Source: a virus. Taken from it: a stretch of 60,714 nt of DNA. Positions 1-59,953 of the stretch are shown one piece after another (the stretch's first letter is position 1; every line of letters starts with the position of its first letter). Location: the IMG/VR virus record IMGVR_UViG_3300010354_000094, positions 1 through 60,714 of that record; one strand, 5' to 3'. A model generated the notes under the pieces. That model was not told the origin of the DNA, ran no database searches, and worked only from the letters and a program-made list of their open reading frames with translations. Made by a program: the position numbers and the translations under genes.

Positions 1-276
1 AGCGTTAGGGTCTTTAGCAGAGGCGGTTGTCCGGTACCTCCATCCCCGTCTTCATTACAACGGCGGTCTTACAAATATACGCTATCACATTTGTAAAACG
101 TGCTCTATCAAGAGCGTCTTTTTAGCCTTTAATCCTTTTCAAACAACTAAATCACAGCATTTAAGTGATCTTCATCCTTACGGGTAGTAGTTGAGTCCTT
201 GTTTTGGCGACAAGATTCCGTCCCTGCGATACGATTGTCCAGGTATAGGGCGCACGATATTAGCCTGCGCTAGCCT
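1..276. other. Unassigned non-coding stretch at the window edge
   Basis: No gene was recognised here. The stretch is visibly richer in G+C than its surroundings. On the minus strand no frame has a start, ribosome site and useful length. On the plus strand the frame from position 2 is open to a stop at 188-190, but its codons are unlike the neighbouring genes. Short hairpins can be drawn: GCGCA/TGCGC at 250-270, ACAAAT/ATTTGT near 71-94, and GCTCT-ATCA-AGAGC near 102-115 followed by TCTTTTT, which resembles a weak plus-strand terminator. It could be a structured RNA, a regulatory region, or the tail of a gene beyond the edge. Confidence 0.4.
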
Positions 277-13900: not shown

Positions 13901-14382
13901 AATCATTAGAAATTTTATATAGCTCTGCCTTAACGCCTATAAAATCTATCAGTGATGAATTAGTGTTTCATCCTGTAAGTTATAAGATACTTTTTGGAAA
14001 CAGAGCGGCTCCTTTACTTCAGGCAACTTTTAAGGCAGTTCGAAATTCTTCTAGACCAACAAGCGATAATGATCTAAAGGCAAGAATTCTAAAAGCAATT
14101 AGTGATTTTTTTGCAATAGAAAATTGGGAATTTGGTCAATCATTTTATTTTTCAGAATTAGCAACCTATGTAATGAATATTATGAGTCCTGACATAACAA
14201 ACTTTGTAATTGTTCCTAAACAAAACTCAACGTTCGGAAGTTTATTTGAGATAAAATGTCAAGGGAACGAAGTATTCATTTCTAGTGCCAGCGCCACTGA
14301 TATAGAAATAATTGATTCATTAACCGCTACAGAAATTAAATCATCAGGCAATATTGTAACTACATCAGGAGGTCAGCAGTAA
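10930..14382 (+). CDS. 6: Baseplate wedge protein gp6 (enlarged, J-like)
   Basis: A 1150-residue wedge protein. The N-terminus (SYDFETLRRTMITYLRENYP, ALIDLIAYLGQNLSFRIDLNARENFLETAERRESILRLARLINYNAKR) is the conserved gp6/baseplate J-like start. The segment MVTGEDYNILPL near 434-445 is also typical. The C-terminal region (NDLKARILKAISDFFAIENWEFGQSFYFSEL, near 1055-1085) matches the gp6 dimerisation end. T4 gp6 has 660 residues; the extra length lies in the middle. gp6 forms the inner baseplate ring with gp53 and gp25. It overlaps the giant gene by 1 nt. Confidence 0.85.
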   Translation: MIPSTTNKLLVTEDWKKIYQSYKNADFKSYDFETLRRTMITYLRENYPEDFNDYIDSSEYIALIDLIAYLGQNLSFRIDLNARENFLETAERRESILRLARLINYNAKRNVPASGLLKINSVLTTDSVLDSNNVNLANTVVSWNDSTNPNWYQQFIAILNSAMISTSSFGKPTAKGVIEGIRTEQYKLNTNNSGVPVYTFNKSINGINLTFEIVSTDLGDSLKEQNPKPGNAFSFVYRNDNQGNNSSNTGFFVHFKQGTLSIADFTIDNPVPNEVIGIDAPNINDTDVWLWQLNADGTYPDSPWTKVAATSGNNVIYNSISGSRNIYAVLTRDQDQIDLNFADGSFGNLPKGAFKLFYRQSNGSSYNIAPAQLSNISFDITYVNKAGQTHTLTVLAGLNYPVTNASGPESDADIKLKAPQVYYSQNRMVTGEDYNILPLTAGTDILKVKTVNRISSGISRYYELSDVSGKYSSLNVFANDGIIYKETNEYSFEYDLGTKNEIRTAIRKNLKDVVTSKEFRSFYYDRYTRPSFSGYNIKWVQGTKTTNQTTGYFEIDELGINQYQPVPAGEFSSNNLKFATEGSLIKFKAPMRSDPSIVNNTSTQQTYFLPNGKLTFKPDNATTDYKWSKVVNIVLDGYNEGKGLLSSGLGPVTITGNIPTDAVPEEIIPKFVSVISEALETEIINLSLTKGNFGIGLDQEKTEWYIISDSNIDLRSDFSLLNQKDSSNTNKDSSWMIAFEWTGKKYKVRYRVIDYLFESQKETAFYVDTSKINYDYINDSVIKDKITVLGINTDATATTSIRFDQEWQIDDSVLELDGYQNPKKVKISFYDKDEDGLIDNPDSFELIVKPDSINVQSGFKDKFVVFKRSSDGLRYNLIDSTDFYFYPTESNVPNSQKEDGQFFYFYDPSADVVKKWSSSLGDFDLQIDYFARPGRSGLKFSYNHKAVETRRIDPSKTNLMDIYMLTKSYDTDFRNWLISDEGLEPLAPTSQSLEILYSSALTPIKSISDELVFHPVSYKILFGNRAAPLLQATFKAVRNSSRPTSDNDLKARILKAISDFFAIENWEFGQSFYFSELATYVMNIMSPDITNFVIVPKQNSTFGSLFEIKCQGNEVFISSASATDIEIIDSLTATEIKSSGNIVTTSGGQQ

Positions 14383-17300
14383 TGGTTTCTAATTACAAAG
14401 GTCGTAGGTCGTCGGATTTACTTCCTGCATTTTTTAAAACAGAAAAAAATAGAAAGTTCTTAACCAGTACTATTGATCAGCTAATTAATCCTCCGGCATT
14501 AAGTAGGATTGATGCATTTGTTGGTAGTAAGAACACGCCTAATTATAAGTCAACTGATCTTTATGTTGCAGAAACTAATCCGTTGAGGCAGCAATATCAA
14601 TTAGAACCTGCTCTTATAGTAAAAAATGAAACTCAAGAAATTAAAAAGACTCTAGCATTTGACGATTTAATTAATCAGTTAAACTCATTTGGTGGAACTG
14701 TTTCAGATTTAAACAGGTTATTTCAACCACATTACTATTCTTACGATCCAAAAATAGATTGGGACAAATTTATTAATTTTAGAGAATACTATTGGTTACC
14801 AACTGGCCCTTCAACAATTACAGTAACAGGTGAGCAGGTAGCTCCGATATCTACTATTTCTGTAACAGATGCAGAGGACAAGATTCAATTTGTATTTGGG
14901 GGTTTAACAACTAGCGAAAAATTGGTTTTATATCGTGGTTATACCTATGTGTTTGAAGTTGATTCTATACATAATTTTTATATAAAATATACCAATCAGG
15001 TCGGACCTGCTGACCAATATACAAACAATGTTTCTAATAACGGAGTTAAAAAGGGTCAAATAATTTTCACTATTGATTGGACCACTCCAGCAAGATTATT
15101 CTATACATCAAATGATGAGCAACTTAGCACAGGCGAAATTATTATTAAGGAGCCTCAAGAAAATTCAACAATCAATGTTGAAGATGAGATCGTTGGCAAG
15201 ATAAATTACACTTCTTCTAACAACATTAAATTTATTAATGGTTTAAAGATTAGATTTGGGGGAACAGTATTTCCTGAATACTATCGAGATTCTGATTTTA
15301 TTGTTGAAGGTGTTGGTGACTCTATCAAACTTATCAAGTTTTCTTTATTATCTACACCTGATGTAATTGCTGATCTTGTTAATGATAAGTTCGATGGAAC
15401 TAACTTTGATCAGTTTCCTTTTGATAACTTTAAAAATATTCCTTTAGTTCCCGAGTATATTACAATTAACAAAGCTAGTAAAGATCTAAATCCTTGGACT
15501 AGATATAATAGATGGTTCCACTCAGATGTAATAAAAGCATCTGCTGAATTTAATAACGCAGTACCTGACTTTCCTCAAGAATACAGAGCCACTAGACCTA
15601 TTATTGAGTTTAAAGCAAACTTGCAACTTTATAAATTTGGTGATACAGCCATAGGGAACATTGACTTAATTGATAATATGACAACTGATGCTTTTGGTAT
15701 TGCCGAAAGCGTTGATGGTTATTATATTGATCATGTAAGAGTTGAAGAAGGTTATAGAGTTATATTCAATGCTGATTCAGATCCTCTAGTAAGAGGTAAA
15801 GTTTTTAGAGCAACTTATTCTAAAGTTTGGCGTAAAACTATTAATCCAGTAACCGGACAACTTGTAGTTAGTAATACAGAATATGATTTAAAATTAAATC
15901 TAGAATTAGAATCAGATGCTCCAGTTGAAGGCTCATCGATACTAGTTACCAAAGGTAATTCAGATGCCGGTAGTAGTTATTATTTTGATGGAACACTTTG
16001 GATAAAATCCCAACAAAGAACTTATAGGAATCAACCCCCGTTATTTGACCTGTTTGATAAAGACGGCAATAGCTATGGGGGAAAATATTACTTAACAAAC
16101 TTTACAGGTAATAAGATATTCGGATACGGAATAGGCACAGGAACCCCTGATCCTGTTTTAGGATTTCCCTTACAGTATAAGAATGTAGGAGTTGAAGGTA
16201 CTTATTTGTTTAATAACTATTTTTCAAATCAGGAGATTATAGTTGTTGAAAATAATGAAACAAAAATTGTACCTAGCGAAACTTCTTTCTTTAGAATTAA
16301 TGATAGCCAAACAATTTTTGCAAATATTTGGGTAGTAGCTGAAGAGTATGAAATTCCTAAATTAGATAATGGCCTGTATGAAGTTCCATTAAATTTGACT
16401 AATAACCCTAATAACGCCAGGATCTCAGACTTTACACTAACCGAATTGTCGGATCATGTTAAAACAATGGTATCCAGGGATTCTAAATTTGAAGGTCTAT
16501 TTCCAGGTCTAAGTAATTTAAAAGATTTACCAAATATAGCAAAATACGGTAATAGAATTATTTCTAATATAAATTCTATGGCCTTCCCCTTACACTTCAT
16601 TGCTGATAAAGAAAATAATGTTATTGATGCAATAAAATTAGTATCGGACCAATATAATCAATTTAAATTCAGTCTTATTAAATCTTTCTTAGAAGTAGAT
16701 AGGACAGATTCTCCTATAGATGCACTTGATTCTATATTAACTAAACTTAACCAAAATAAGACTACTACTTTTCCATATTTTAATAGTTTAATGTTGGGAT
16801 ACGGAACCGGTGCCATTGTAAGGAATTATAGAGTTACTGATTCTAGAAATACTACATATTCTTTACCTAGTGATTATTCTCCTTCGGATGTTGCAAGCAG
16901 AGCAGTTTACATCTACTTAAATGGAACTCAACTAATAAATGAATTAGAATATAAAATAAGTGCTTATAGTAGTAATTTTGAAATACTTGTTCCGTTAGAA
17001 AGAGGAGATTTAATTCTTGTTAAAGATTATAAATCTATTGAAGGTAACTTTGTACCACCTACTCCTACTTCGTTAGGATTATATCCAAAGTTTGAACCAA
17101 AAATTTATCTTGACGATACCTATGCAGGAGATCCGGTAAATGTAATCCAAGGCCATGATGGTAGTTTGACTGTGGCATTTAATGATTACAGAGATGATAT
17201 TATATTAGAATTTGAAAAGCGTGTTTATAATAATATTAAAATTTCTTATAACATCGATATTTTTGATATCAATAAAATTTTACCAGGTGCTTTTAGATCT

Positions 17301-20300
17301 ACTCAATATAATTATTGGGAAGTTATTAATCTTGTATATAGAGACTTTTTAAAATGGAAGAGTTCCTATACTGTTGAATTTGAAAAAAATACAGCGTGGG
17401 ATGTTAATAATCATAGAACTTATAATTATGGATCTATTGATGGACCTCTAGGCGAAAAACTACCGGGCAATTGGAGAGCAATATTTAAGCTGTATTTTGA
17501 TACTGATAGGCCCCACCTATGTCCATGGGAAATGTTAGGGTTTTCAAATAAGCCAGACTGGTGGGAATCTGCGTACGGTCCTGCTCCTTATACTTCTGGA
17601 AACTTGCTAATGTGGGAAGATATTGCAGAAGGTAGGATAATTCAAGGCCCGAGACAAGGATTACACGCCACGTATGCTAGACCCGGTTTGTTGGATTTAC
17701 TTCCTATAGACGATGAAGGTAATCTTGTTGACGTAAGGAATTGGCATATTCTAGGTCAGGCTGATGCATTGCAGGATTCAAACGCATCTTGGAAATTTGG
17801 TGATCACGGTCCGGCAGAAACTTCTTGGAGAAGAAGCAGCTATTGGCCTTATGCAGTGCAGATTATTCTTGCGTTGATTAAGCCTAGCCTATACGGAAGT
17901 CTTATGTTTGATACCAGTAGAGTAAACAAAGACAAAATAGGTAATATAGTTTATTCTAATGATGGATTATTTTTAAGTACAAGAAGATTGTTAGTTCCGT
18001 ACGATGTTGTTAATTCTAAGAAAGTTCTTTGTACAGGTTACAGTGTATTTCTTGTTGAAGCAGGTTTGCAAAGGACACTAGAATATATTAATAATCTTAA
18101 ATCAGATTTAAAATTTTCTAATTTCCACTTAATGCATAAAGTTGGTGGGTTCATTAGTAAAGATAAAATTGAAGTTGTAATTGATAGTGTAAATCCTAAT
18201 AGTATTAGTCCGGGTGTTTTATTACCTTTAGAAGATTATAGTATTTTCTTCAATGTCGGTAACACTGTTCAAACTGTCTCAGCTTCTGGCATGATTATAC
18301 AAAAATACAACAATAATCAGTATATTGTTAGAGGATATGATAGAGTTAACCCATATTTTACAGTTTACGATCCTATTCATCAGAAGTCAGATAAATCGTT
18401 AACGGTTGGAGGGAAGTCTGAAGATTATTCATTATGGTCTGCTAACTTTTTTTATAGTGCAGGAGATGTTGTCTCGTATCAAAATCAGTTTTATAGAGTT
18501 GTAACCAATCATAATTCTGGTCAAACATTTAATTCAAAATTCTATTCTAACTTAAGAGTATTGCCTACAGTTGGGGGAACAACAGCGGCTATTAGCGATG
18601 TATATGAAACATCATCTAGGAAAGTTTCCTATGGTGTAATATTAGACTCAGTTCAAGCAGTAGTCGACTTAATGTTAGGTTACGGAAAATTTTTAGAAAC
18701 TGAAGGTTTTATATTCGATGACTTCAATGTTGATTTGAATCAAGATATTAATTGGAAATTTAGTGTTAAAGAATTTTTATTCTGGACAACTCAAAATTGG
18801 GCCAACGACAGTGTTATAGCAGTAAGTCCTTTTGCAAATAAGATAACCTTTACTAGCCACGATTCTGTTGTAGACAATGTTTTTAATAGTTTCTATGAAT
18901 ATAATATTTTTAATGCTAGCGGTAATGCATTTCCTAAAGAAGATTTTAATTTAATAAGAAATGAAGCTACATGTACTATTACTACTGATCGAGAAGAAGA
19001 AGGTATTTTCTTTATAAGATTAAGATTAGTACAAAAAGAACATGTTTTAATTTTGAATAATCGTAGTAGGTTTAATGATGTAATTTATGACACTGAAAAG
19101 GGTTATAGACAGCGAAGAATAAGATTAATTGGATTTAAAACGTCTGAATGGAATGGAGATTATTTCAGTCCGGGATTTGTATACGATAGCTCCGTTATTA
19201 AAAAATGGACGCCTTATACTGATTATCTTGCAGGCGACGTTGTAGAATATACCGGAAATTATTACAGTTTAATAAAGAATCTTTCTGGAACTGAAAAGTT
19301 TAATTACACTGATTGGAGCTTGTTAGGGAACAAACCTGTAGCTCAATTAATACCTAATTTTGATTATAAAATTAATCAGTTTGAAGATTTTTATAGTTTA
19401 GATATTGATAATTTTGATGTAAGCCAACAACAGTTAGCACAGCATTTAATTGGTTATAGTTCTAGAGTCTATCTATCTAATATATTCATCGATCCTATTG
19501 CTCAATATAAATTTTACCAAGGATTTATTAGAGAAAAGGGCACTCGTAATGCTTTAGAAAAATTAGCCAAAGCTAGTGTAAATAATCTTCAAGGAAAAAT
19601 TGACTTTAATGAAGAATGGGCATTTAGAGTTGGACATTTTGGTGCTTATTCTAGCTTAGATGAGCTAGAGTTTCCTTTAGAAGAAAACAAATTTTTGGAT
19701 AACAGCCAAGTTATAAAATTTGTTGCATCGGAACCCGGCATAGATTTTGATATAACAAATTATATAACAGAAGACAAGTTATCAATGAAGCCGCAGGATT
19801 TTGATATTTCTTCGGTATTTGCAACTAAGTCGCAAACTTATGCGGAAAATGATTATGTATTACCTGTAGCAGGATATGCTAGAGTAGAAGATGTACACTA
19901 TGCTATCAAAGATAAGGCGTCATTATATAATTTTACAACCAGTACTTTTATAAAAACTGGTGATACTGTATGGATAGGTTTTGAAGAAGATGGTGATTGG
20001 GGAATGTATAGATATGCTAGACTGTCTCCTGTTGTTGTTAATGTTGAAACTGACATAGCTGGACAAACTTTACTTTTTACTACAGATGTTTATCACGGGC
20101 TATCCGAAGGCGAGATTATTGCAATCACTAGATTTGAAGATACTTTAGACGGTGTTTACAAAATTAAAAGTGTACCTTTGTTAAATCAGATAATTGTAGA
20201 ATCTACAATTATACCTGGCAATACATTTACGCCTTACGGAGTGTTGTTTAAGTTTGTTAAATGTAGATTTGATTCTTTTGATGATCTTGCTAATACTGAA

Positions 20301-23300
20301 TTTTTAGCAGACATTAAAGAAGGTCAAAAAGTTTGGGTTGATCGTAATTCTAAAGGAAAATGGGAAGTATACGAAAAGATAGACAATTACAGGTCTTTAA
20401 CTATAACTAGCGGACTTAAAAATCCAGGAATGAGGTTTGGCCATAGATTAGTATCAAGAGAAGGATCGGGTGTAATGGTTGCTGCCGCTCCGTTATATAA
20501 TGATGCTGTTTATGGAACAGGTCGAGTTTTTGTTTTTAATAACTCTTATGCTGCTACAGAAAATGCTGTTCAGCAAAAATTTAGTTATGGTTTGAATAAA
20601 ATAGCAGATCAATTTTATAATTCTACATCTGGAACACCTGCGAAATTTGGTCATGCACTAGCTTTGGATTCTAAAGACGGGTTAATATTTGTAGGAGCTC
20701 CCTTTGCCAGTAATGTTCGAAGGAACTCGTCAAATACTAGTACAAACTTTGTTGTTGCAACTAATACAATGTCTGGTTATGTAGCAGAAGGAATAGTTAC
20801 TATGTCCTTTAATGTACCTTCTGCTAATAATGAAATAAGATTTAAAACTTTAGCTTCTTCGGAACCAGAAAATAATTTAAATTTTGGTTCAAGTATTTTT
20901 GTAGCCGATGTTAAGGGAACAAAACCTTTATTAGTTGGTGCTCCTGGTCATACTAGTAGCACTGGTGCAGTCTTTGTTTTTAATGTTGCTTACAATAGAT
21001 TTGACCCTCCAAATACAAGTTTTGATGAAGGTCTTACTGTTTTCGATAGTGGTACATGTTTATTTGACGGAGAAGTTGTATTCATAACAGAAACTAATAT
21101 AACTGCTACCTCTCAGATTAAGTTACCAACAGTAGGTATTCCTGGACTAACAGGCAGTAGATTTGGAGAAAGAATATCAGGAGATTTGGTAGGAACCAAG
21201 ATCGCAGTAGCAGCGCCTCAATATGATAATGGGAATGGTGCAGTATTCATATATCAATCTACAGCAACATTAGCGCCGTATTCTTTAGTGCAGACTATTC
21301 CGTGGAATGCTGAGTATCATAACGGTGTATTGCCTATCGGTAGCAATTTTGGTACAGAGATAAACATCGATGATTCGGGCCATTATCTTTATGTGTCTGC
21401 GTATACAGCCGACGATAAAAAATATCAACCAGGAAAGGTGTTAATATACAATTGGACTGGAACTGCTTACACTTATACTCAGGTTCTTCATAACCCCTCA
21501 GCTACGCTTGGCCTTAAGTTTGGATATAGTCTTGAAAGTGATAGTAAAGGAAATATATTAACAGTAACCAGCCAAGGTCCGAACTATTTTGTTGGAATAA
21601 AATTTGACAGCGGCGAAACTACATTTGATGCAGATTCTACCCAATACGGTAGTGTAGTTGAAGATAGTGGCAGTGCATATGTATACAATAGGTATGGTTC
21701 AAAATACATTTTCTCAGATGAATTATTCAACGAATCAGTTACTAAAAATAGTTTATATGGCGGCAGTGTGGCTGTTGATAGAAATACTATCTATGTCGGC
21801 GCACCAGGATTTGTAGAAGTATTCAGTATAACAGAATTTGCAGAAACATATAAAGGTAATTTTGATTATGCTACTTTCTTAACCACAGCTCAATCTATAT
21901 TGCCTTTGTATACTAGTAATAATTCTTATATTACAACACCGGGTACTAGATACGGACTATTTAGAGATCCGGATAATACAGGATTAAGTTATTGGACAGC
22001 CTTTGCAATCAACCAAAATCAATCTTCTACTTCCACAGTATTTTTAGATAGTTTCTTTGAAGCAGTATCATTGACTTCCGAAGCTTCTAGGGCACTAACT
22101 AACAATAAGACATTCTTACCATCAAATAATGGTAGAGTATTTGTATGGAATTCAAAAGATCCATTGTCTAACAGTTGGAAAATAATTAGGCAACAAGATG
22201 AATCTATCGACGTAACAAAGTTTAAACAAATAAAAACTATTAATGTTAGGGACGATAGTGTTGAAGAGTATTTAGAAATATATGATCCTGCTAAAGGTAA
22301 AATACCTACAATTGCTGATGACGAGATCAAATACAAAACTTTCTTTGACCCAGCAGTTTATTCATCTGGTATAGATTCTGTCAGTGTTGATGTTGAATCG
22401 TATTGGACTGACGAAAAAGTCGGAGAATTATGGTGGGATCTGAGCTCCGTAAAATATGTATGGTACGAGCAAGGGGATGTTGAATATAGAAACAAAAGTT
22501 GGGGTAAATTATTTCCAGGATCTACGATAGATATTTACGAATGGGTAAGTTCGCCGTATCTTCCAAGCCAATGGGCTGATTTATCTGGTACTCCTCAAGG
22601 TCTTGCACTAGGTATTACAGGAGAACCAAAGTTTGCTGACGACAGCGTGTATGCAATTAAAAAAGTATACAATAGTCTGACAAATACTACATCAAGTTTA
22701 TATTACTATTGGGTCAAAGGAAAAACTGATGTACCTAATAGACAAGGCAGAAAAATATCAGCCTATGATGTTGGGGTTGCTATAGAAAATCCAAAGTTTT
22801 ACGGCCTCAAATATCTACAGGTGTTAAGCAAAGATTCTTTATCGGCAGTAAATGTTAAAGGGTCTTTAATTGATGATGTAATTTATCTAAACATACAAAT
22901 AGATGACATCGATAATCCTAATAACAGGCATAGTGAATGGGAGCTAATTGCTGAAGGATCTGCAAAATCAAATATTAGTACTATTCTAGAAAAGAAATTC
23001 GTTGATAGCCTATTAGGTAGGGATAGGTTAGGTAATCTTGTTCCGGATAGTTCTCTCCCAGATAGACAAAAATACGGAATTCAAATTCGTCCAAGACAAT
23101 CTATGTTTAAGGACAGAATTAGTGCTTTAAGAAACTCTGTAGACTTTATAAATGATGTTTTTGAGAAAAATCTAATTACAGATTTTTATAATCTCAATAC
23201 TATGAAGTTGAAAGATGAGATTCCTGAAATAAGTTCTAGGGAATATGATCAAATAGTAGAAGATTTAGGTCAACGCGATTTAATAGAAATTAAAGATCTA

Positions 23301-26300
23301 AGACAGGCAAAGGTTGCTTGTACCATATTAAATGGAAAAATAGATTCCTTAACTATTATTGATAGCGGATATGGTTATGGAAAATTAGAAATTTACGAAT
23401 ATGATATTAATAACAATCCTATAAAATGGAGAGGACCTAAAGTTTCTATTGATAATGATACCAATGGAGCAGTTATAGAAAGTATTATTAACGGTTTTGG
23501 CGAATTAGTTGAATTAATATTAAAGAATCCTGGCACAAACTACTATTCAACACCAATTATAAATGTTAGACCTTATTCTGTTATAGTTCAAACAGATGAA
23601 AACTCAAAAGGAAAATGGGCAAAGTATTCTGTAATCAATAAATCATGGTCTAAAGTTCAAACACAAAAGTTTGATACTACTAGATATTGGGATTTTGTTG
23701 ATTGGGTGAGTCCAGAATATAATCAGTATCAGACTATAGCATCGACTGTTGATAAATTATATCAAACTCAAGAATTAACTTTACGACCTAATGATTATGT
23801 AAAGGTAAATGACGGCGGCGCCGATCGATATTTAATTTTGCGTAAGACAGAATTAGGAGTTCAAGGTACATTCAATGAGTTGTTTGATGTAATGTATAGT
23901 GAAAAAGGTACATTAAAAATCAAAGAAAGTGTATGGGATTTAAGACAATCTTATTTAGGATGGGATCAAGTTTCTCCTTACGATGAAACATATTATGATC
24001 AAACTCCTGACGTTGAATTAGAAAATATTTTACAAGCCCTTAAAGAAGATATTTTTGTAGGAAATTTAAAAGTATATTGGAATAAATTATTCTTTGCATC
24101 TGTAAGATATGCCCTTACAGAACAAAAATCTCTTGACTGGGCATTTAAGACATCATTTATTAATGTTCAAAATCAAGCAGGAGAATTAGATCAAAGACCT
24201 GTTTATAAGTTCCAAGATAGTAAATGGTATGAAGATTATCTAGATGAAATCAAACCCTATCACACTAAGATAAGGAATTACGAACTAACTTATAACAATA
24301 TAGAACCAAGTCAAACGTTTACAACTGACTTTGATTTACCTAGTGTGTTTGATAATAATCTAGGAAAGTATGTAATTTTAGATCCAAGTAATCCTAAGGT
24401 TCAAGAATATCCTTACAAAGGTTGGACAGACAATTACAAATTATTTGTTGATTCTATCATTGTTACAAATGGTGGAACATTATATACCGCAGTACCTGAA
24501 ATAAGAATAATACCGGCATTTGGCGATACTCCTACAAGAACTGCAACAGCTGAAGCTTATATATCAGGTGGTAAGCTTTCTCAAATTATTGTAACAGATC
24601 AAGGCGAAGGTTATACCAAGACTCCTACTGTATTGGTAGTAGGTGGAAAAAGTCTAACAGATGGCGTATTGGCTAAGGCCAGTGCGATAATGACTAACGG
24701 TAAAGTAAGAACAAATACCGTAGGTATGAAGTTTGATAGGATTTCTATATCGAGAGAAATTGGTTCAAAGACTGTTACAGATACATTTGTCGCCGACGGT
24801 ATACAGCAAGAATTTGTATTAAGTTGGCCTGCTTTCTTAAACAAAGAAGAAATTTCTATTACATTAGACAATGTTATTATTTTAGGTGCAAACTATACTT
24901 TTGAAGATTTTAAACAACTTTATAACGGTTATAATAAATCTTATACCAAGTTAGTTTTGAACTTCCAACCTGATAAAAATAGTGTTCTAAAAATAACTTA
25001 TCCTAAGAGTCTTAAGATTTATACAGCTATTGACAGGATTGAAGATTATTATGATCCTCATTTTGGAATGCCTGGAAAAGAACCAGAACAACTAATGAAG
25101 GGGGTAGAATATCCCGGAACAAAAATTGTAACTCAAGAATTTGCCTATGATTTTTCTTGGGATGCATTGCCTTTTGAAAGTGTAACTTGGAATAGATTGG
25201 CCAATCAAACAGACGATTTAGATTCTATTATTGATGGTGGAAGTCTCACTACAACTAACGGACTATTTGTTTCAGCTTCGGGGATCAAACCAGAAGATAT
25301 AAATCTTGACGGCGATCAATTTTTAAGTCCTTGGAGGTCTCATGCTCCAGAAGAACTAATTAGAGGCGAAGTTAACGAAAGCCTGGCAGTTAATGTTTAT
25401 ACTAGAGAAATTAGTGGAAGCCCGATGATTTACACAGCGTCAGGCCAAGTTATACCCGGACGACCTACTGTTATAAAATTAACAATTAAACCGCCTAATA
25501 GAGAATCAGTAATTGTAACTTTGAATAACAGATTATTAAATTATGGCGAATTTACAATTAATTTTGAAACCGACGAATTAACATTTCCAAACACAAGCAA
25601 TTCTTCTGGTATTATAGAAATTACCTATATGGATGTAGGGGGCACTGGTTTCTTAAGCTTAGACAGTCAGACGAATGAAGGAGAAAGTATTGGTTCAGTC
25701 GTTGGATCCTGTGCATTTGTTGATGTAAAAAGTGTGTATGTTAGTGTGAACGGTATTAGAACACCTCCTTATACACAACTCTCTGGTTCGGGATACATTA
25801 TATCTGTAGCAGAAGAAGGTGTAGATGCTAGGGCTAAGATAACTGTTTACGGGTTATCGACCACAGGTGAAAACACAATTACGGCAGCATTTTTCAGTGC
25901 TGAATTTAAAGGGTTTAGCGAAGTAAGAGAACAAATTGTTTTCAATACTGTTCAAAAACAATTTACATTAGTGCAACCCCCTGCCAATATAGGACCTCAG
26001 TCCTCTAATGCCATTGTTGAATTAGATAAGCGTAGATTATCTCCACCAAATACTACTTATTATGAAGTAACTTCTGTAAGTACGGGATCATATGCTATCA
26101 GTCAATCAATGACATACGAGCCAGGTTCAATTGGGTATACAAATATCGAAGTATATAAAAACGGACAAAGAATTCCTGGAACTAATTTCTTTATTGATCA
26201 AACAAATAATATCTTAAGAGTTAATCCTTTAGATTTTAAAGTAGGGGATGTGTTAGCTATTACAGTGTTACTAGATCATGAATTTGTTATTGTTGGTAAT

Positions 26301-27701
26301 CAACTAGTTTTAACTGACAGAGTCAATGTAACTCCACCAAATCAATTAAGGATTTTAACTTTTACTAATCATGATGCTAGCCTAATAAGAACAGAAGTAT
26401 TCAATATTAATTCTGCTGGGTTATATAAGATATCTAGACCTGTAGTTAACGATAATTATATTTGGATCAGCATCGGGGATAGAGTTTTAGTAAGTGGTTA
26501 CGATTTCTTTGTTTTACAAGATGGGGTTACTATTCAATTAGATCCAGATATTCCCTATCAGGATGGTCAAAGAATTACTATAATGACCATTGGAGAAAGG
26601 CAATCTGGAAAGACTATTGGATATAAAATATTTAAAGATATATTTGGTAGAAATCATTATAAGAGATTGAGTCAAGCAGATACAACCTATTTGACTCAAC
26701 CCCTACAATTAACCGATACGTCTATATTTGTAGAAAACGGTAACGTTTTACCTCCACCGGATCTACAGAAAAATATTCCAGGAATAATTTTTATTGCAGG
26801 TGAAAGGATTGAATACGATTACAAAAACGGTAATCAATTAACTGGTCTAAGAAGGGCAACATTCGGTACCGGAGCTAAAGATTATTATGCCATAGGAACT
26901 TGGGTAGCCGATCAAGGAATAACGCAAACTGTACCTTTTAATGAAACTGTTAATGAGCAACAAATTTTAACAAGTTCAGTTATATCTTACACCCCAGTTC
27001 ATTCTTTTGATAATGCAGGAAACTATGTTGATAGAGTAACAGGAAGCTATCTAACAGATGGGTTTGTAGCAGGACAAACTATCAAGATTGCCGGTACTAG
27101 ATTTAACGACGGAGTTTATCAAGTGTTACAAGTTAATGCAACAAGAATGTGGTTTACTCCATTAAAAGTTGCTACTAACGAACTTACTGTCGGTACTTTT
27201 ACAATAACAACTATTGGTTATCCTATAACTACATTAACGTTTGTAAATACTGCCGAGCGCCACGATCAGGTTGAAGTATATTTCAGAGGAAGGAAGTTAG
27301 AAAAACCGACAAAAGCTGGAAACATAAGGTATGCCCATGATAAATCTCAAGCCTATGATAGCGGATCAGAAATAGGAAGGTCTATTATTAATCCTGATTT
27401 TAATATTACCACAGCAACAGTTAGTGCTACAATAATAACTTCAGTAGTTCTTACAGATAATATACCTATTCAAGGAAATGAGCCACTATTATTAGTGCAG
27501 AGGAAGTCCACAAGTTGGTATGATCAAACCAGTGCTACAAACATTTCTCTACTGACAGGACAGACTATACAAGCAAGATTTATTCAAGAAAGACCGTCGT
27601 TTACACCGGACATATATTATTACGGTGGGGACACTGTTTTACGATTTGATGATGGATTGCCATTGACCACAGATGATGATAGACCAATAAAAGGAAGCTA
27701 A
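14382..27701 (+). CDS. Giant baseplate-region structural protein (gp7 position) with beta-propeller
   Basis: A single 4439-residue ORF, over a fifth of the window, in the place of T4 gene 7. Visible parts: an N-terminal marine-phage motif (LLPAFFKTEKNRKFL); two WxxxxxYxxGDVVxYxxxxY segments like small carbohydrate-binding modules (near 1350-1395 and 1608-1650); about six FG-GAP/integrin-type propeller blades (near 2015-2475, with FGHALAL, VGAPF, LLVGAPGH, IYVGAPG); a DUF4214-like segment (LFRDPDNTGLSYW, near 2525); and repeated GxGYxxTPxIxV strands (near 2985-3090 and 3360-3430). No signal or membrane segment is evident. It probably replaces or extends the gp7 wedge and may carry host-contact functions. 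The frame has no stop over 13.3 kb, so it is under selection. Confidence 0.75.
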   Translation: MVSNYKGRRSSDLLPAFFKTEKNRKFLTSTIDQLINPPALSRIDAFVGSKNTPNYKSTDLYVAETNPLRQQYQLEPALIVKNETQEIKKTLAFDDLINQLNSFGGTVSDLNRLFQPHYYSYDPKIDWDKFINFREYYWLPTGPSTITVTGEQVAPISTISVTDAEDKIQFVFGGLTTSEKLVLYRGYTYVFEVDSIHNFYIKYTNQVGPADQYTNNVSNNGVKKGQIIFTIDWTTPARLFYTSNDEQLSTGEIIIKEPQENSTINVEDEIVGKINYTSSNNIKFINGLKIRFGGTVFPEYYRDSDFIVEGVGDSIKLIKFSLLSTPDVIADLVNDKFDGTNFDQFPFDNFKNIPLVPEYITINKASKDLNPWTRYNRWFHSDVIKASAEFNNAVPDFPQEYRATRPIIEFKANLQLYKFGDTAIGNIDLIDNMTTDAFGIAESVDGYYIDHVRVEEGYRVIFNADSDPLVRGKVFRATYSKVWRKTINPVTGQLVVSNTEYDLKLNLELESDAPVEGSSILVTKGNSDAGSSYYFDGTLWIKSQQRTYRNQPPLFDLFDKDGNSYGGKYYLTNFTGNKIFGYGIGTGTPDPVLGFPLQYKNVGVEGTYLFNNYFSNQEIIVVENNETKIVPSETSFFRINDSQTIFANIWVVAEEYEIPKLDNGLYEVPLNLTNNPNNARISDFTLTELSDHVKTMVSRDSKFEGLFPGLSNLKDLPNIAKYGNRIISNINSMAFPLHFIADKENNVIDAIKLVSDQYNQFKFSLIKSFLEVDRTDSPIDALDSILTKLNQNKTTTFPYFNSLMLGYGTGAIVRNYRVTDSRNTTYSLPSDYSPSDVASRAVYIYLNGTQLINELEYKISAYSSNFEILVPLERGDLILVKDYKSIEGNFVPPTPTSLGLYPKFEPKIYLDDTYAGDPVNVIQGHDGSLTVAFNDYRDDIILEFEKRVYNNIKISYNIDIFDINKILPGAFRSTQYNYWEVINLVYRDFLKWKSSYTVEFEKNTAWDVNNHRTYNYGSIDGPLGEKLPGNWRAIFKLYFDTDRPHLCPWEMLGFSNKPDWWESAYGPAPYTSGNLLMWEDIAEGRIIQGPRQGLHATYARPGLLDLLPIDDEGNLVDVRNWHILGQADALQDSNASWKFGDHGPAETSWRRSSYWPYAVQIILALIKPSLYGSLMFDTSRVNKDKIGNIVYSNDGLFLSTRRLLVPYDVVNSKKVLCTGYSVFLVEAGLQRTLEYINNLKSDLKFSNFHLMHKVGGFISKDKIEVVIDSVNPNSISPGVLLPLEDYSIFFNVGNTVQTVSASGMIIQKYNNNQYIVRGYDRVNPYFTVYDPIHQKSDKSLTVGGKSEDYSLWSANFFYSAGDVVSYQNQFYRVVTNHNSGQTFNSKFYSNLRVLPTVGGTTAAISDVYETSSRKVSYGVILDSVQAVVDLMLGYGKFLETEGFIFDDFNVDLNQDINWKFSVKEFLFWTTQNWANDSVIAVSPFANKITFTSHDSVVDNVFNSFYEYNIFNASGNAFPKEDFNLIRNEATCTITTDREEEGIFFIRLRLVQKEHVLILNNRSRFNDVIYDTEKGYRQRRIRLIGFKTSEWNGDYFSPGFVYDSSVIKKWTPYTDYLAGDVVEYTGNYYSLIKNLSGTEKFNYTDWSLLGNKPVAQLIPNFDYKINQFEDFYSLDIDNFDVSQQQLAQHLIGYSSRVYLSNIFIDPIAQYKFYQGFIREKGTRNALEKLAKASVNNLQGKIDFNEEWAFRVGHFGAYSSLDELEFPLEENKFLDNSQVIKFVASEPGIDFDITNYITEDKLSMKPQDFDISSVFATKSQTYAENDYVLPVAGYARVEDVHYAIKDKASLYNFTTSTFIKTGDTVWIGFEEDGDWGMYRYARLSPVVVNVETDIAGQTLLFTTDVYHGLSEGEIIAITRFEDTLDGVYKIKSVPLLNQIIVESTIIPGNTFTPYGVLFKFVKCRFDSFDDLANTEFLADIKEGQKVWVDRNSKGKWEVYEKIDNYRSLTITSGLKNPGMRFGHRLVSREGSGVMVAAAPLYNDAVYGTGRVFVFNNSYAATENAVQQKFSYGLNKIADQFYNSTSGTPAKFGHALALDSKDGLIFVGAPFASNVRRNSSNTSTNFVVATNTMSGYVAEGIVTMSFNVPSANNEIRFKTLASSEPENNLNFGSSIFVADVKGTKPLLVGAPGHTSSTGAVFVFNVAYNRFDPPNTSFDEGLTVFDSGTCLFDGEVVFITETNITATSQIKLPTVGIPGLTGSRFGERISGDLVGTKIAVAAPQYDNGNGAVFIYQSTATLAPYSLVQTIPWNAEYHNGVLPIGSNFGTEINIDDSGHYLYVSAYTADDKKYQPGKVLIYNWTGTAYTYTQVLHNPSATLGLKFGYSLESDSKGNILTVTSQGPNYFVGIKFDSGETTFDADSTQYGSVVEDSGSAYVYNRYGSKYIFSDELFNESVTKNSLYGGSVAVDRNTIYVGAPGFVEVFSITEFAETYKGNFDYATFLTTAQSILPLYTSNNSYITTPGTRYGLFRDPDNTGLSYWTAFAINQNQSSTSTVFLDSFFEAVSLTSEASRALTNNKTFLPSNNGRVFVWNSKDPLSNSWKIIRQQDESIDVTKFKQIKTINVRDDSVEEYLEIYDPAKGKIPTIADDEIKYKTFFDPAVYSSGIDSVSVDVESYWTDEKVGELWWDLSSVKYVWYEQGDVEYRNKSWGKLFPGSTIDIYEWVSSPYLPSQWADLSGTPQGLALGITGEPKFADDSVYAIKKVYNSLTNTTSSLYYYWVKGKTDVPNRQGRKISAYDVGVAIENPKFYGLKYLQVLSKDSLSAVNVKGSLIDDVIYLNIQIDDIDNPNNRHSEWELIAEGSAKSNISTILEKKFVDSLLGRDRLGNLVPDSSLPDRQKYGIQIRPRQSMFKDRISALRNSVDFINDVFEKNLITDFYNLNTMKLKDEIPEISSREYDQIVEDLGQRDLIEIKDLRQAKVACTILNGKIDSLTIIDSGYGYGKLEIYEYDINNNPIKWRGPKVSIDNDTNGAVIESIINGFGELVELILKNPGTNYYSTPIINVRPYSVIVQTDENSKGKWAKYSVINKSWSKVQTQKFDTTRYWDFVDWVSPEYNQYQTIASTVDKLYQTQELTLRPNDYVKVNDGGADRYLILRKTELGVQGTFNELFDVMYSEKGTLKIKESVWDLRQSYLGWDQVSPYDETYYDQTPDVELENILQALKEDIFVGNLKVYWNKLFFASVRYALTEQKSLDWAFKTSFINVQNQAGELDQRPVYKFQDSKWYEDYLDEIKPYHTKIRNYELTYNNIEPSQTFTTDFDLPSVFDNNLGKYVILDPSNPKVQEYPYKGWTDNYKLFVDSIIVTNGGTLYTAVPEIRIIPAFGDTPTRTATAEAYISGGKLSQIIVTDQGEGYTKTPTVLVVGGKSLTDGVLAKASAIMTNGKVRTNTVGMKFDRISISREIGSKTVTDTFVADGIQQEFVLSWPAFLNKEEISITLDNVIILGANYTFEDFKQLYNGYNKSYTKLVLNFQPDKNSVLKITYPKSLKIYTAIDRIEDYYDPHFGMPGKEPEQLMKGVEYPGTKIVTQEFAYDFSWDALPFESVTWNRLANQTDDLDSIIDGGSLTTTNGLFVSASGIKPEDINLDGDQFLSPWRSHAPEELIRGEVNESLAVNVYTREISGSPMIYTASGQVIPGRPTVIKLTIKPPNRESVIVTLNNRLLNYGEFTINFETDELTFPNTSNSSGIIEITYMDVGGTGFLSLDSQTNEGESIGSVVGSCAFVDVKSVYVSVNGIRTPPYTQLSGSGYIISVAEEGVDARAKITVYGLSTTGENTITAAFFSAEFKGFSEVREQIVFNTVQKQFTLVQPPANIGPQSSNAIVELDKRRLSPPNTTYYEVTSVSTGSYAISQSMTYEPGSIGYTNIEVYKNGQRIPGTNFFIDQTNNILRVNPLDFKVGDVLAITVLLDHEFVIVGNQLVLTDRVNVTPPNQLRILTFTNHDASLIRTEVFNINSAGLYKISRPVVNDNYIWISIGDRVLVSGYDFFVLQDGVTIQLDPDIPYQDGQRITIMTIGERQSGKTIGYKIFKDIFGRNHYKRLSQADTTYLTQPLQLTDTSIFVENGNVLPPPDLQKNIPGIIFIAGERIEYDYKNGNQLTGLRRATFGTGAKDYYAIGTWVADQGITQTVPFNETVNEQQILTSSVISYTPVHSFDNAGNYVDRVTGSYLTDGFVAGQTIKIAGTRFNDGVYQVLQVNATRMWFTPLKVATNELTVGTFTITTIGYPITTLTFVNTAERHDQVEVYFRGRKLEKPTKAGNIRYAHDKSQAYDSGSEIGRSIINPDFNITTATVSATIITSVVLTDNIPIQGNEPLLLVQRKSTSWYDQTSATNISLLTGQTIQARFIQERPSFTPDIYYYGGDTVLRFDDGLPLTTDDDRPIKGS

Positions 27702-56649: not shown

Positions 56650-59319
56650 TTATTCAAAGCTGAATAATGAGCTGAATGTGTTTTCTTGTGTGGTAGATTC
56701 CAAATCCCACTCAAGTACTCCTATAAGGTTATCTAATTTATTGTTAATAATGGTTGCTTCCATTTCACTATGATTGAAAGGTAGTTCCTGAAACCATTTA
56801 GGCAATCTAAGTTCGTCTGTAGGATAAGCCACAGACGTATAACCTAAAGGATTGTCTTTGAGTTTACAAACAATAACTTTCATTCCGTCAACAATACCCA
56901 TAGAATATTTGTCAGAATTAAGTCGCTTTAGTGTATTCCAATTGATACTTGCTCTAACATGTCCTGGCATATTGGCTTTACCACTTTTGACTTCTTTGGC
57001 CTGATATTCTGTAATGTTATTTGCTCTTTTAGGAGATCCTTTCTCCCAGCCCGGCCTTGCTTTAAATTCTGTACGGAATTCACTTATACGTTCTAGAACT
57101 TGTTTTTCCTCGGCACCGTTTAGCACCATAGTTAAAATCTCTTCTAAAAACTTTTGCATAAATTCCGGAGTATCGGACCTTTTTAGATCTAGGCCCATAG
57201 CCTTAATCTTTCCAGGCTTACCTTCGATATCTGTACGCTTTCCTTCTTTATCATAGTAAAGAACAGCATATCTTTTCTTGGTAATGAACAGTCCTTTACT
57301 AGCAACAATTTCTCTACCAGCCTTAATAACTTCACCGCGACTCTTAGGACAATGGAATGCGTCTAGCATAAATTGACTGAAAGTAGAATTTACTTCTCCT
57401 GCAATAGTATCATACAACTGTATCACAGTATCTTTATCCCAAGGAACTAGTCCTTTAGAAATATCTGTCTTAAGTGTAGAATATGCTGAGAAATATGCAG
57501 AGTCGGTATCACCGTATATAATTGACTTTCCTACGTGATTATATTCTCCAGTTATTACTTCATTAATTTTACTAGCCATGTGTTTGGCAATTTGGCGTCC
57601 TGTAAGTGTGGTGCTTTGACCGATACGATTATCGAAAAACCTACAACCAGCATTAAGAATAGCACCATATAAGCTATTAAGGTTAATCTTTTTAACCAAT
57701 TGACGTTTATCCCAATATTCTTCTTCAATTTTATTCTCCGCTTTAATAGCATCCTTTAATTTGGCCTGCATTTCCTTACGTTCTTTATACCATCTCGCTA
57801 ACAGACCGGGAATAATTCCCTCGAATTCATATGTAAAAATAGTGCCATTGGCTGACAGCATCCATGGTTTACTGCTGTTAAAAATAAGTTCATATATTTC
57901 AGCACCACTCATTATTGTAGTTTCGCCGTTTTCCCAATCAACGGTTATATCGCTTGCCCTATTTTGACTCATTACGAAATCATATTCTAGACTACCAAAT
58001 CGACCTTCCCATGCAGCCGCAAAACTTTTTCCTTTGGACATTTCTCCTTCTATATACGTTTTTGTGTAGTCCTGTCTTAATTGTCCTATAATAGTTTCAG
58101 GACCCATGTTCAGCGCCCTAATAACACTGGGATATAGACTGTTAATGTCCATACTTCCAATCCAATCATGGAGTCCTTTCTTAGGATACGCAACATAGGC
58201 GCCAGCGGCTTGTGTATCGATATTTTCATCGCGTCTTGGTCTGCTAGGTACAATTAAACCTCTATGATGCGCTTCGTTAACAATGGCCTGCTCTGTAACA
58301 GCTACAGCGCCCATTGTAGTCTGTAACAGAACAGTATTTTCATGGGCGATTGTATTAGCTAGATCGATAAACTTTAATTTACGGTCTAATTTATTAAGTA
58401 ACGCACAGTCTTGTCTATTATATTCAATAAACTTTCTAAAGTCATTATTGTAAAGTTGGTCAAGTGTGCCTTCGTAAACAGTTTTACTTTCGCCTATCTC
58501 CATTTCTCCGATGGCGTCAAGTCTGTAAGTATGACGTTCTTCATAGGTATACTTTCTGTACAGCTCAAGGCTATCAAGGTGGACACGACCAATAAGGTCA
58601 TAAGTAACGGCCTGTTTCCCATATTTTTCATACTCTCGTTTTTTAGGCAATTGATCCCATAAGCAGAAGCGTCTAGTATCTTCTTTACTGAGAACTTTAA
58701 TAACCCGATTCACAGTGTATGGAATATCAAAACCCTCTGAATTCCATCCGCTGAGCACATCTGCATCTTCAATAAGATTTAAGAATGTGTCTAGCATTTC
58801 TGCTTCTGATTCGAATAATATAGTATTAGGGAAATCTTTAACCTGCTCTTTAGCTTGTTCCATACTCAGTGTTTTAGGAGGAATAGCCAAACAGACTAGT
58901 GTATCTAACCATTGCAAATGAACTGCTATGGCAGTGATAGGCATAAACGCATCATCAGGACTAGCATAACCTCTTTCAGGGTCAAAATCTACCTCGATGT
59001 CAAAAAATGCTACATTTAGTTTTGGGGCATCTTTGCCTAAATAGTTTTCTTCTAGGGTACGGAAGACTACGTTAATATCGCTTTCATATAATTTATGATT
59101 GCTGTGGATTCTAAGTTCTTTTTGAAAGTCTTTAAAATTTTTGCATACTACCCTAGAAAGATTTTCTCCATATATGGATTTGTACTTTCCTTTTTGATCT
59201 GGATAATAAAATAAGTGCTTTGCGGGATATTCTTGATATAAGCGACCTTTTTTAGGGTCTCGCTCTACAATTTTGACAATGTCATTATCACGGTCCCAAA
59301 TGCCGTCAACATAACTCAT
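56650..59319 (-). CDS. 43: Family B DNA polymerase gp43
   Basis: 889 residues (T4 gp43 has 898). The 3'-5' exonuclease starts with FFDIEV (D107, E109). Polymerase motif A DINSLYPSVIRAL lies near 395, motif B KKINLNSLYG near 545, and motif C YGDTDSAYF near 600. The C-terminus ENTFSSLFSF fits the clamp-binding tail of T4-like polymerases. Translation starts after a strong GAGGAG that touches a pair of hairpins, pointing to autogenous control as in T4. It would also copy DNA carrying the modified base. Confidence 0.97.
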   Translation of the reverse strand: MSYVDGIWDRDNDIVKIVERDPKKGRLYQEYPAKHLFYYPDQKGKYKSIYGENLSRVVCKNFKDFQKELRIHSNHKLYESDINVVFRTLEENYLGKDAPKLNVAFFDIEVDFDPERGYASPDDAFMPITAIAVHLQWLDTLVCLAIPPKTLSMEQAKEQVKDFPNTILFESEAEMLDTFLNLIEDADVLSGWNSEGFDIPYTVNRVIKVLSKEDTRRFCLWDQLPKKREYEKYGKQAVTYDLIGRVHLDSLELYRKYTYEERHTYRLDAIGEMEIGESKTVYEGTLDQLYNNDFRKFIEYNRQDCALLNKLDRKLKFIDLANTIAHENTVLLQTTMGAVAVTEQAIVNEAHHRGLIVPSRPRRDENIDTQAAGAYVAYPKKGLHDWIGSMDINSLYPSVIRALNMGPETIIGQLRQDYTKTYIEGEMSKGKSFAAAWEGRFGSLEYDFVMSQNRASDITVDWENGETTIMSGAEIYELIFNSSKPWMLSANGTIFTYEFEGIIPGLLARWYKERKEMQAKLKDAIKAENKIEEEYWDKRQLVKKINLNSLYGAILNAGCRFFDNRIGQSTTLTGRQIAKHMASKINEVITGEYNHVGKSIIYGDTDSAYFSAYSTLKTDISKGLVPWDKDTVIQLYDTIAGEVNSTFSQFMLDAFHCPKSRGEVIKAGREIVASKGLFITKKRYAVLYYDKEGKRTDIEGKPGKIKAMGLDLKRSDTPEFMQKFLEEILTMVLNGAEEKQVLERISEFRTEFKARPGWEKGSPKRANNITEYQAKEVKSGKANMPGHVRASINWNTLKRLNSDKYSMGIVDGMKVIVCKLKDNPLGYTSVAYPTDELRLPKWFQELPFNHSEMEATIINNKLDNLIGVLEWDLESTTQENTFSSLFSFE

Positions 59320-59326
59320 TAATTTT

Positions 59327-59378
59327 CTCCTCGTGGTTTATGGCCCACTGACCTTCTTATTGCGATTTATGGCTCGCA
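59327..59378 (-). promoter_or_regulatory. Tandem hairpin operator and RBS before gene 43
   Basis: In the minus-strand RNA, hairpin 1 is UGCGA-GCCAUAAA-UCGCA (59378-59361) and hairpin 2 is GUGG-GCCAUAAA-CCAC (59348-59333). Stems differ, loops are identical 8-mers. GAGGAG (59332-59327) follows directly, 7 nt before ATG 59319. T4 gp43 represses its own mRNA through a 5-bp stem, 8-nt loop hairpin at the ribosome site. Confidence 0.75.
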
Positions 59379-59387
59379 GGACCTTTC

Positions 59388-59684
59388 TCAAAAAATATTT
59401 AGCATCCTTGCCAGTCCTACGGTATCAATTGTAGTCAGCAGTAGGTAGTTAGCCAGCATACCAAAAGATTTCCTAGTCCAAGCAGCCCAAGCATACATGG
59501 CACAGCCAGCAATCCAAATAGGATATAAAGCAAGAAGCGGTGGTTCGGGAACTGTGACTGCCATAGTAATACTGCAACCAATACTAGCAGCCCAAGCAAG
59601 CAACTCAACAATAAAGCGAATTCTATGAGACTTAAAGTCATCACGTATCCAATCGAATGTTGGTTTGAATAGATCTAATATCAT
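59388..59684 (-). CDS. Small membrane protein
   Basis: 98 residues. Three hydrophobic stretches are visible: FIVELLAWAASIGCSITMAV (24-43), LLALYPIWIAGCAMYAWAAW (49-68) and a weaker MLANYLLLTTIDTVGLARML (76-95), so it is probably an inner-membrane protein. The fold is unrecognised, with a loose resemblance to small phage membrane proteins near replication genes. It shares 1 nt with the upstream gene and its end is 68 nt before the polymerase start. Confidence 0.6.
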   Translation of the reverse strand: MILDLFKPTFDWIRDDFKSHRIRFIVELLAWAASIGCSITMAVTVPEPPLLALYPIWIAGCAMYAWAAWTRKSFGMLANYLLLTTIDTVGLARMLNIF

Positions 59685-59953
59685 TAATCCTCACGTCGGT
59701 TAGCGTGACCACTGATATCTACAATAGTTTCAAGATCATCAAATTCACGGAAAACTTGATCCCATTGATCTTTTAGAGCAATACGTATAGCTTTTCTAAT
59801 AACGCTGGGTTTTACATCTAGCTCTTCTGCCACAGCTTTAATGGTTTCATTTAGACCCTCTGTAAGGTCTTGTATTTCTTGCATTACAGTAACGCCCTCA
59901 GATACAATTTGTTTAATTTTAGCCTGTTCTGGGGCCCCGAATGATTTACTCAT
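59684..59953 (-). CDS. Small helical protein, possible DsbA-like DNA-binding protein
   Basis: 89 residues, the same length as T4 DsbA, a late double-stranded DNA-binding protein. Predicted all-helical, with VAEELDVKPSVIRKAIRIAL (41-60) resembling a helix-turn-helix. The start MSKSFGAPEQAKIKQIVSEG is typical of marine T4-like phages. DNA binding is likely, but the DsbA identity rests on length and helix pattern only. Own promoter and ribosome site (AGGAGA). Confidence 0.5.
   Translation of the reverse strand: MSKSFGAPEQAKIKQIVSEGVTVMQEIQDLTEGLNETIKAVAEELDVKPSVIRKAIRIALKDQWDQVFREFDDLETIVDISGHANRRED

Follow-up and report, generated by a model that had tools for sequence, protein, structure and literature searches.

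The DNA polymerase locus and its leader

The window, by which we mean the whole 60,714-base virus record of IMG/VR analyzed here, carries on its minus strand a gene for an 889-aa family B DNA polymerase that resembles T4 gp43 (PF00136/PF03104; phrog_262, E 1e-199). Its closest solved structure is RB69 gp43 (1clq, E 5.2e-63), and the protein, judged by its sequence, is a gp43 homologue, with about 26–27% identity to T4-group records. The leader of this gene measures 68 nt from the stop of a small ORF upstream (59388) to the polymerase start codon, and in it two tandem hairpins, here called HP1 (distal) and HP2 (proximal), precede the Shine-Dalgarno (SD) sequence. The features of this locus are as follows:

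56650-59319, minus strand: family B DNA polymerase, 889 aa, T4-gp43-like
59317-59319, minus strand: polymerase start codon ATG, from the sequence
59327-59332, minus strand: Shine-Dalgarno sequence GAGGAG, from the sequence
59333-59348, minus strand: HP2, proximal hairpin GTGG[GCCATAAA]CCAC, 4-bp stem and 8-nt loop, abutting the SD
59349-59360, minus strand: HP1-HP2 spacer ATAAGAAGGTCA, 12 nt
59351-59355, minus strand: AAGGT element 5' of HP2, present as GGT or AAGGT in relatives by leader alignment
59361-59378, minus strand: HP1, distal hairpin TGCGA[GCCATAAA]TCGCA, 5-bp stem and 8-nt loop
59381-59385, minus strand: AAGGT element 5' of HP1, in which column counts over 61 leaders show a single A and a single G without variation
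59396-59402, minus strand: CTAAATA, a putative late-promoter-like box, from its spacing in clade leaders

Written as RNA from just inside the upstream stop, the 5' part of the leader reads GAGAAAGGUCC-UGCGA[GCCAUAAA]UCGCA-AUAAGAAGGUCA, and the 3' part continues as GUGG[GCCAUAAA]CCAC-GAGGAG-AAAAUUA-AUG. An earlier note on this DNA had described two stems with identical 8-nt loops, set 12 nt apart and with the second touching GAGGAG, and our sequence check found the coordinates, stems, loops, spacing and contact exact to the base. Folded alone as drawn, HP1 and HP2 reach −6.5 and −6.0 kcal/mol, values equalled by 1 of 200 shuffles, and the folding stability of the whole leader is ordinary (z −0.6 to −1.5), so that stability alone would have missed the hairpins. 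Pairs of hairpins with identical 8-nt loops within 45 nt occurred in 4 cases across 60 simulated windows of equal length, both strands included, and the loop octamer by itself is no rarity (4 occurrences in the window vs 3 expected). The evidence against chance that the window offers by itself is moderate.

Several other features of the window deserve mention. An 89-aa ORF upstream of the polymerase (59684-59953, minus strand) is weakly similar to phrog_639 (transcriptional regulator) and near phrog_12534 (function unknown). At 141-275 (minus strand), just after an ORF at 277-711, there is a strong match (104 bits) to Rfam RF01718, Polynucleobacter-1 RNA, a candidate structured RNA from Burkholderiales and fresh water (PMC2864571). 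On the plus strand, 60022-60129 matches the Rhizobiales sRNA family Atu_At1 (Rfam RF02496) over its full length with 55.4 bits, below the cut-off of 60; the match directly follows a TTAAATA box, has a stem and a T-run at its end, and is a possible phage small RNA. Finally, a single ORF of 4,439 aa (14382-27701, plus strand) sits inside a long plus-strand gene run.

Conservation and covariation of both hairpins

Comparing the window with 80 relatives whose polymerases are 82–87% identical, which together gave 61 distinct leaders (scan counts being lower bounds), we found HP1 and HP2 both present in 61/61, a few of these having a 9-nt HP2 loop or a mismatched closing pair. The earlier note had named close relatives beforehand as the place where its reading could fail, and there both the loop core and the pairing proved conserved in every leader. 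In the leader alignment, compensatory, two-sided changes occur at 10 of 10 aligned pairs (HP1 5/5, HP2 5/5), which bears out the claim, made originally from the window's own leader, that the stems covary, and 96.4% of alignment cells are paired across the 61 leaders. Double-change cells numbered 170, against 59.5 (sd 6.2) in shuffles and at most 24 with slid partners, and the covariation score reached 0.747, against 0.290 (sd 0.016) and at most 0.162, respectively, all of these counts including shared ancestry; HP1 and HP2 analyzed singly gave the same picture. Among 129 distinct hairpins of each kind, four-pair stems come in 24 and 23 different sequences, a diversity that suggests many separate events. 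In some leaders the HP1 stem has an apparent one-base bulge (e.g., L115, GCGTG[GCCATAAA]CCGC), and G-U pairs are tolerated, at one HP2 pair in 18/61 leaders, consistent with a function at the RNA level. Taken comparatively, the evidence that both hairpins are conserved RNA structures, and not chance, is overwhelming.

These patterns bear on whether the repeats might instead act as DNA, either as an operator for a DNA-binding protein or as a replication origin. Two imperfect palindromes, the direct repeat AAGGT..GCCATAAA and an adjoining promoter-like box would suit such a site, but arms that vary by compensation around a fixed loop are the opposite of what a DNA palindrome site would show, G-U pairs are present, and the elements lie downstream of the likely transcription start, keep a constant spacing to the SD, and stay with the first cistron where genes have been inserted (see below). 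We find this explanation barely credible.

What the loops conserve is a core, GCCnnAA, near-invariant in both hairpins (GCCNNAA in HP2 and mostly GCCAYAA in HP1), around which the stems vary. The earlier note's observation that both loops hold the same octamer is correct for the window and does not extend to a conserved unit: the HP1 octamer equals the HP2 octamer in 9/61 leaders, where shuffling predicts 6.5, so that chance has a share in the window's two loops being exactly alike, and the common core is real. The window loop GCCAUAAA includes UAAA, and among relatives the conserved part is GCCnnAA only. Outside the hairpins, we add to the earlier note a conserved GGT/AAGGT on the 5' side of each, with a G-rich AAGGT kept before HP1 and GGTATT or AAGGT kept before HP2; the SD follows immediately 3' of HP2, in conserved placement across the clade leaders.

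Cross-pairing between HP1 and HP2 is at the level of shuffles, which indicates two independent elements rather than a two-state switch. A structured 5' leader with two helices could also be a riboswitch or an attenuator that alternates between two folds; we hold this to be highly improbable, since complementarity between the helices is at the level of shuffles and the leader shows neither a terminator, nor a larger fold of the ligand type, nor a match to any Rfam family. The UCCU.AGGA closure of the window's predicted fold, an anti-SD pairing in the minimum-energy structure that we rejected as not conserved among leaders, falls at positions that vary between them.

A promoter-like box in front of the leader

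Across the clade, a TAA[AGT]TA box stands 5' of HP1 at a near-constant distance (54/61 leaders within one nucleotide of each other), and an ATAAATA/ATAAGTA box precedes the leader in 44/59 leaders of the sister clade described below; similar boxes precede several other genes of the window. In T4 late promoters a TATA box of 8 bp precedes the start by roughly one helical turn (PMC2988020), and by this resemblance the transcript may start just 5' of HP1, right before its AAGGT.

A leader that seemingly begins just before HP1 is also what 5' stabilizers have, and RegB processing is known to boost synthesis of the T4 gene 43 polymerase (PMC3014915), such that the hairpins could chiefly protect or process the mRNA, as a 5' stabilizer or nuclease-processing element, rather than repress translation. 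We view this as improbable: stabilizers need stable stems and not a loop core, whereas these stems are weak (about −6 kcal/mol) and GCC and AA are fixed, and HP2 is held next to the SD, the 3' strand in the sister clade even being part of the SD.

One copy per genome, ahead of the polymerase

Scanning viral contigs with a pattern that was blind to the polymerase, we recovered at least 119 loci, and among the matches listed the N-terminus of a polymerase lies downstream in 117 of the 119 loci examined (about 68–87% identity over long matches). The other two comprise one contig that ends early, its last codons being polymerase-like, and one chance match. The start codon lies 14–24 nt past the matched pattern in 114 of these 117 polymerase loci, again among the matches listed. 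Whole-record searches with a tandem model, run on the window and on nine related records of which three measure 327–353 kb, returned one strong copy in each; the single-hairpin models R2 and R3 gave no further convincing copy beyond the polymerase leader in the same set, and a regulon with copies elsewhere in those genomes was rejected accordingly. The earlier note had placed the element beside the SD of the polymerase; it is found there in 117 of the 119 listed viral loci and, with one strong copy per record, only there. Occurring once per genome searched, the motif appears to be dedicated to the polymerase gene.

Matches to the tandem pattern in bacterial genomes (at least 118 stretches, in unrelated taxa) scored at most 22.4 bits in the 100 checked, against 37–88 bits for 40 viral loci, and because these scores are so far below the viral ones we set them aside as looking like chance. 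Rfam 15 held no match in the window leader, even at E up to 5, and none at gathering score in ten related loci. In the literature searched we did not find a tandem operator or leader motif of this kind described, an earlier mention in other T4 relatives being possible.

The hairpins could also be a translational operator whose binder is a protein other than the polymerase, with control in trans; candidates are further replication proteins such as the clamp or SSB, some phage regulator not yet described, and RNA-binding proteins of the host. In favor of this main rival, gp32 and RegA also repress translation in T4 (PMC3014915), and the distinct first hairpin of the sister clade could signal a second protein. 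However, the motif occurs once per genome and at the polymerase only, where one would expect a general regulator like RegA to act on several genes; in six large relatives no RegA match rises above cut-off; and geometry and position match the gp43 operator. We consider a different binder unlikely, although the binding partner is the weakest link of our proposal.

Genes inserted behind the putative operator

At a number of loci (L111, L166, L190, L379, L381/L323, L333 and L386/L309/L311) an ORF of 20–341 aa separates the putative operator from the polymerase. There the operator accompanies the SD of the insert, whose stop codon overlaps the start of the polymerase. By sequence these represent at least 5 different inserts, and the three large ORFs that we tested showed no clear family by Pfam/PHROG comparison; an insertion upstream of the operator would escape notice in this survey. 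Because the operator stays with the first cistron, it belongs to the start of that cistron, and the polymerase behind the insert would be reached by translational coupling, as judged from gene arrangement and not from expression. This arrangement speaks for an effect on translation initiation rather than on the DNA or on mRNA decay.

A sister clade with another first hairpin, and lineages without the leader

In a polymerase tree built by a quick method with SH-aLRT support, the leaders with two GCCnnAA hairpins fall into one clade (support 99, with two automatic labels corrected); the automatic labels of L007, L215 and L321 were wrong, and the leaders or upstream regions of these loci were inspected by eye. 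Next to it stands a sister clade (support 100) whose polymerases are about 61–69% identical to that of the window and whose leader is also tandem, reading GAGTC-GCTC[ACGTTAC]GAGC-ATG..., then AYGGC, then CCG[GCCAYAAA]CGGAG, with the 3' strand of the short second stem forming part of the SD. Its stems covary as well, with double-change cells numbering 16 vs 4.0 in shuffles for the first hairpin and 14 vs 3.4 for the second, although in the first hairpin an A.C mismatch mostly takes the place of the innermost pair. What the two clades have in common is thus the GCCnnAA hairpin next to the SD, whereas only in the window's clade does the distal hairpin match it in kind. The earlier note had spoken of a duplicated operator, a description that suits the window's clade and is not a general rule, since the sister clade's first hairpin is of another kind and simple duplication of one site therefore does not hold generally. 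This different loop is not predicted by a simple model of two equal sites.

Further leader forms occur around these clades. Between a TATAA[AG]TA box and the GAGTC hairpin, the sister-clade loci L277, L278, L288, L289 and L310 and their relatives have an extra hairpin, perhaps a 5'-end hairpin with a variable stem (examples being CTGTTTTAAACAG, CTGTTGCTATTCAACAG and TACAGCGTCTGTA). Four loci with polymerases of about 62% identity (L241, L242, L261 and L296) have a leader variant with GTTGG[CTATA]CCAAC followed by TGTAA[GCTCGAAA]TTACA, its loop being GCTCNAAA, and L322 and L324, from a relative of the sister clade, have a different single hairpin near the SD, GTGG[TATCATAAC]CCAC.

Several lineages of the sister clade are without this leader, the polymerase start overlapping or adjoining the stop of the upstream gene, and several clades at 60–64% polymerase identity have no such leader. 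Nor did the cultured relatives Phosso (51%), Atu_ph07 (46%), 121Q, RaK2, SCTP-2, XbC2 and Vibrio 2.275.O show the hairpins, their polymerases being at most about 51% identical to that of the window. These absences, in cultured relatives and at 60–64% identity alike, suggest that the control is dispensable.

A proposed tandem operator for the polymerase

Position, stem and loop size, the combination of variable stem and fixed loop, and exclusivity to one gene all match the gene 43 operator, and on this basis we propose autogenous repression. We think it probable that the two hairpins form a tandem operator, with two sites, through which the polymerase represses its own translation. Protein binding, the polymerase as the binder, translational repression and cooperation between two sites are all steps that we infer. 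HP1 and HP2 would together constitute a single RNA operator acting in cis from the polymerase mRNA leader, where a protein, most likely polymerase unoccupied on DNA, would recognize GCCnnAA on a short stem, aided by the GGT or AAGGT on its 5' side. A protein seated at HP2 would cover the SD and block translation initiation, such that polymerase output would drop as free polymerase accumulates; HP1, a further site of like kind, would make binding tighter or cooperative. The cooperative or two-step control that the earlier note suggested is at this stage a conjecture. Autoregulation is absent from some polymerases of T4 relatives (PMC3014915), so homology to gp43 does not by itself establish it.

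Considering the tandem sites, the inserted genes and the sister clade jointly, we tentatively entertain a fuller picture, possible though short of an even prospect, in which the leader is a cooperative two-site switch, occupied by two polymerases or a dimer, within a cassette that acts on any first cistron and has an exchangeable distal half. Its response may be sharper than that of the one-hairpin T4 operator, and the inserted accessory genes may now be under polymerase feedback. The cassette may consist of the promoter-like box and the operator, with the SD-proximal GCCnnAA hairpin retained across clades.

The T4 gene 43 operator is a classic example of a site through which a polymerase controls its own synthesis, and reportedly the first RNA SELEX experiment was directed at it; to our knowledge, little has been established about the spread and evolution of this operator beyond T4-like phages. 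The present large-phage group, which is uncultivated, offers more than 100 natural variants of stem, loop and spacer, together with a divergent sister clade, losses and insertions. If the polymerase binds, these constitute a ready data set for protein–RNA coevolution, and cooperative control by two copies becomes directly testable. At the time of the review that we draw on, there was no structure of a gp43–RNA complex, and how a DNA polymerase selects its mRNA was then unresolved (PMC3014915). New here are the different first hairpin of the sister clade and the genes inserted behind the putative operator.

Comparison with known operators

RegA sites likewise represent phage control at a ribosome-binding site, and they are without RNA structure and located at many genes (PMC3014915), whereas the element described here is structured and found once per genome. 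The RegA family (PF01818) was not above cut-off in the window or in six relatives of 327–364 kb, with the T6 control positive; for this reason, and for the structured, single-copy sites, RegA was rejected as the regulator. The T4 gene 32 operator shares the principle proposed here, in that a replication protein represses its own translation via RNA structure in the leader, but it is built from a pseudoknot and a less structured stretch (PMC535899), as opposed to two simple hairpins.

Closer in kind is the T4-like gene 43 operator, an established site of autogenous repression that has UAAC in its loop, or UAAA in RB49 (PMC3014915). The likeness to the RB49-type operator, which rests on the text of that publication, lies in the UAAA within the window octamer GCCAUAAA and in the AA, near-invariant in the window's group and reported to be important in the RB49 operator (PMC3014915); in contrast to that operator, the U varies here (C, G or A), GCC is conserved and the arrangement is tandem. 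Examining an RB49-like (Krischvirus) leader by simple search, we saw no such hairpin.

The operators of T4, T6 and RB69 offer the nearest parallel. As positive controls, the same simple scan recovered AGCCT[AATAACTC]GGGCT in T6 and AGAC[AATAACTC]GTCT in an RB69-like phage, single operators with 8-nt loops that start at −31 and −24 relative to the start codon, compared with −25 for HP2. This match in position and similarity in geometry agree with the earlier note, which had likened the site to the T4 operator by its placement. Both systems occupy the leader of a homologous polymerase at a similar distance from the start, with a stem of 4–5 bp and a loop of 8 nt, and in both the loop is kept by sequence and the stem by pairing. 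They differ in the loop, GCCnnAA here and AAUAACUC there; UAA(A/C) is common to GCCAUAAA and AAUAACUC, but at another loop position, and it is not invariant in the window's group. They differ also in the surroundings, as GGT or AAGGT precedes each hairpin here and a late-promoter-like box stands directly in front, and in number, with two hairpins in every leader of the window's clade where T4, T6 and RB69 have one.
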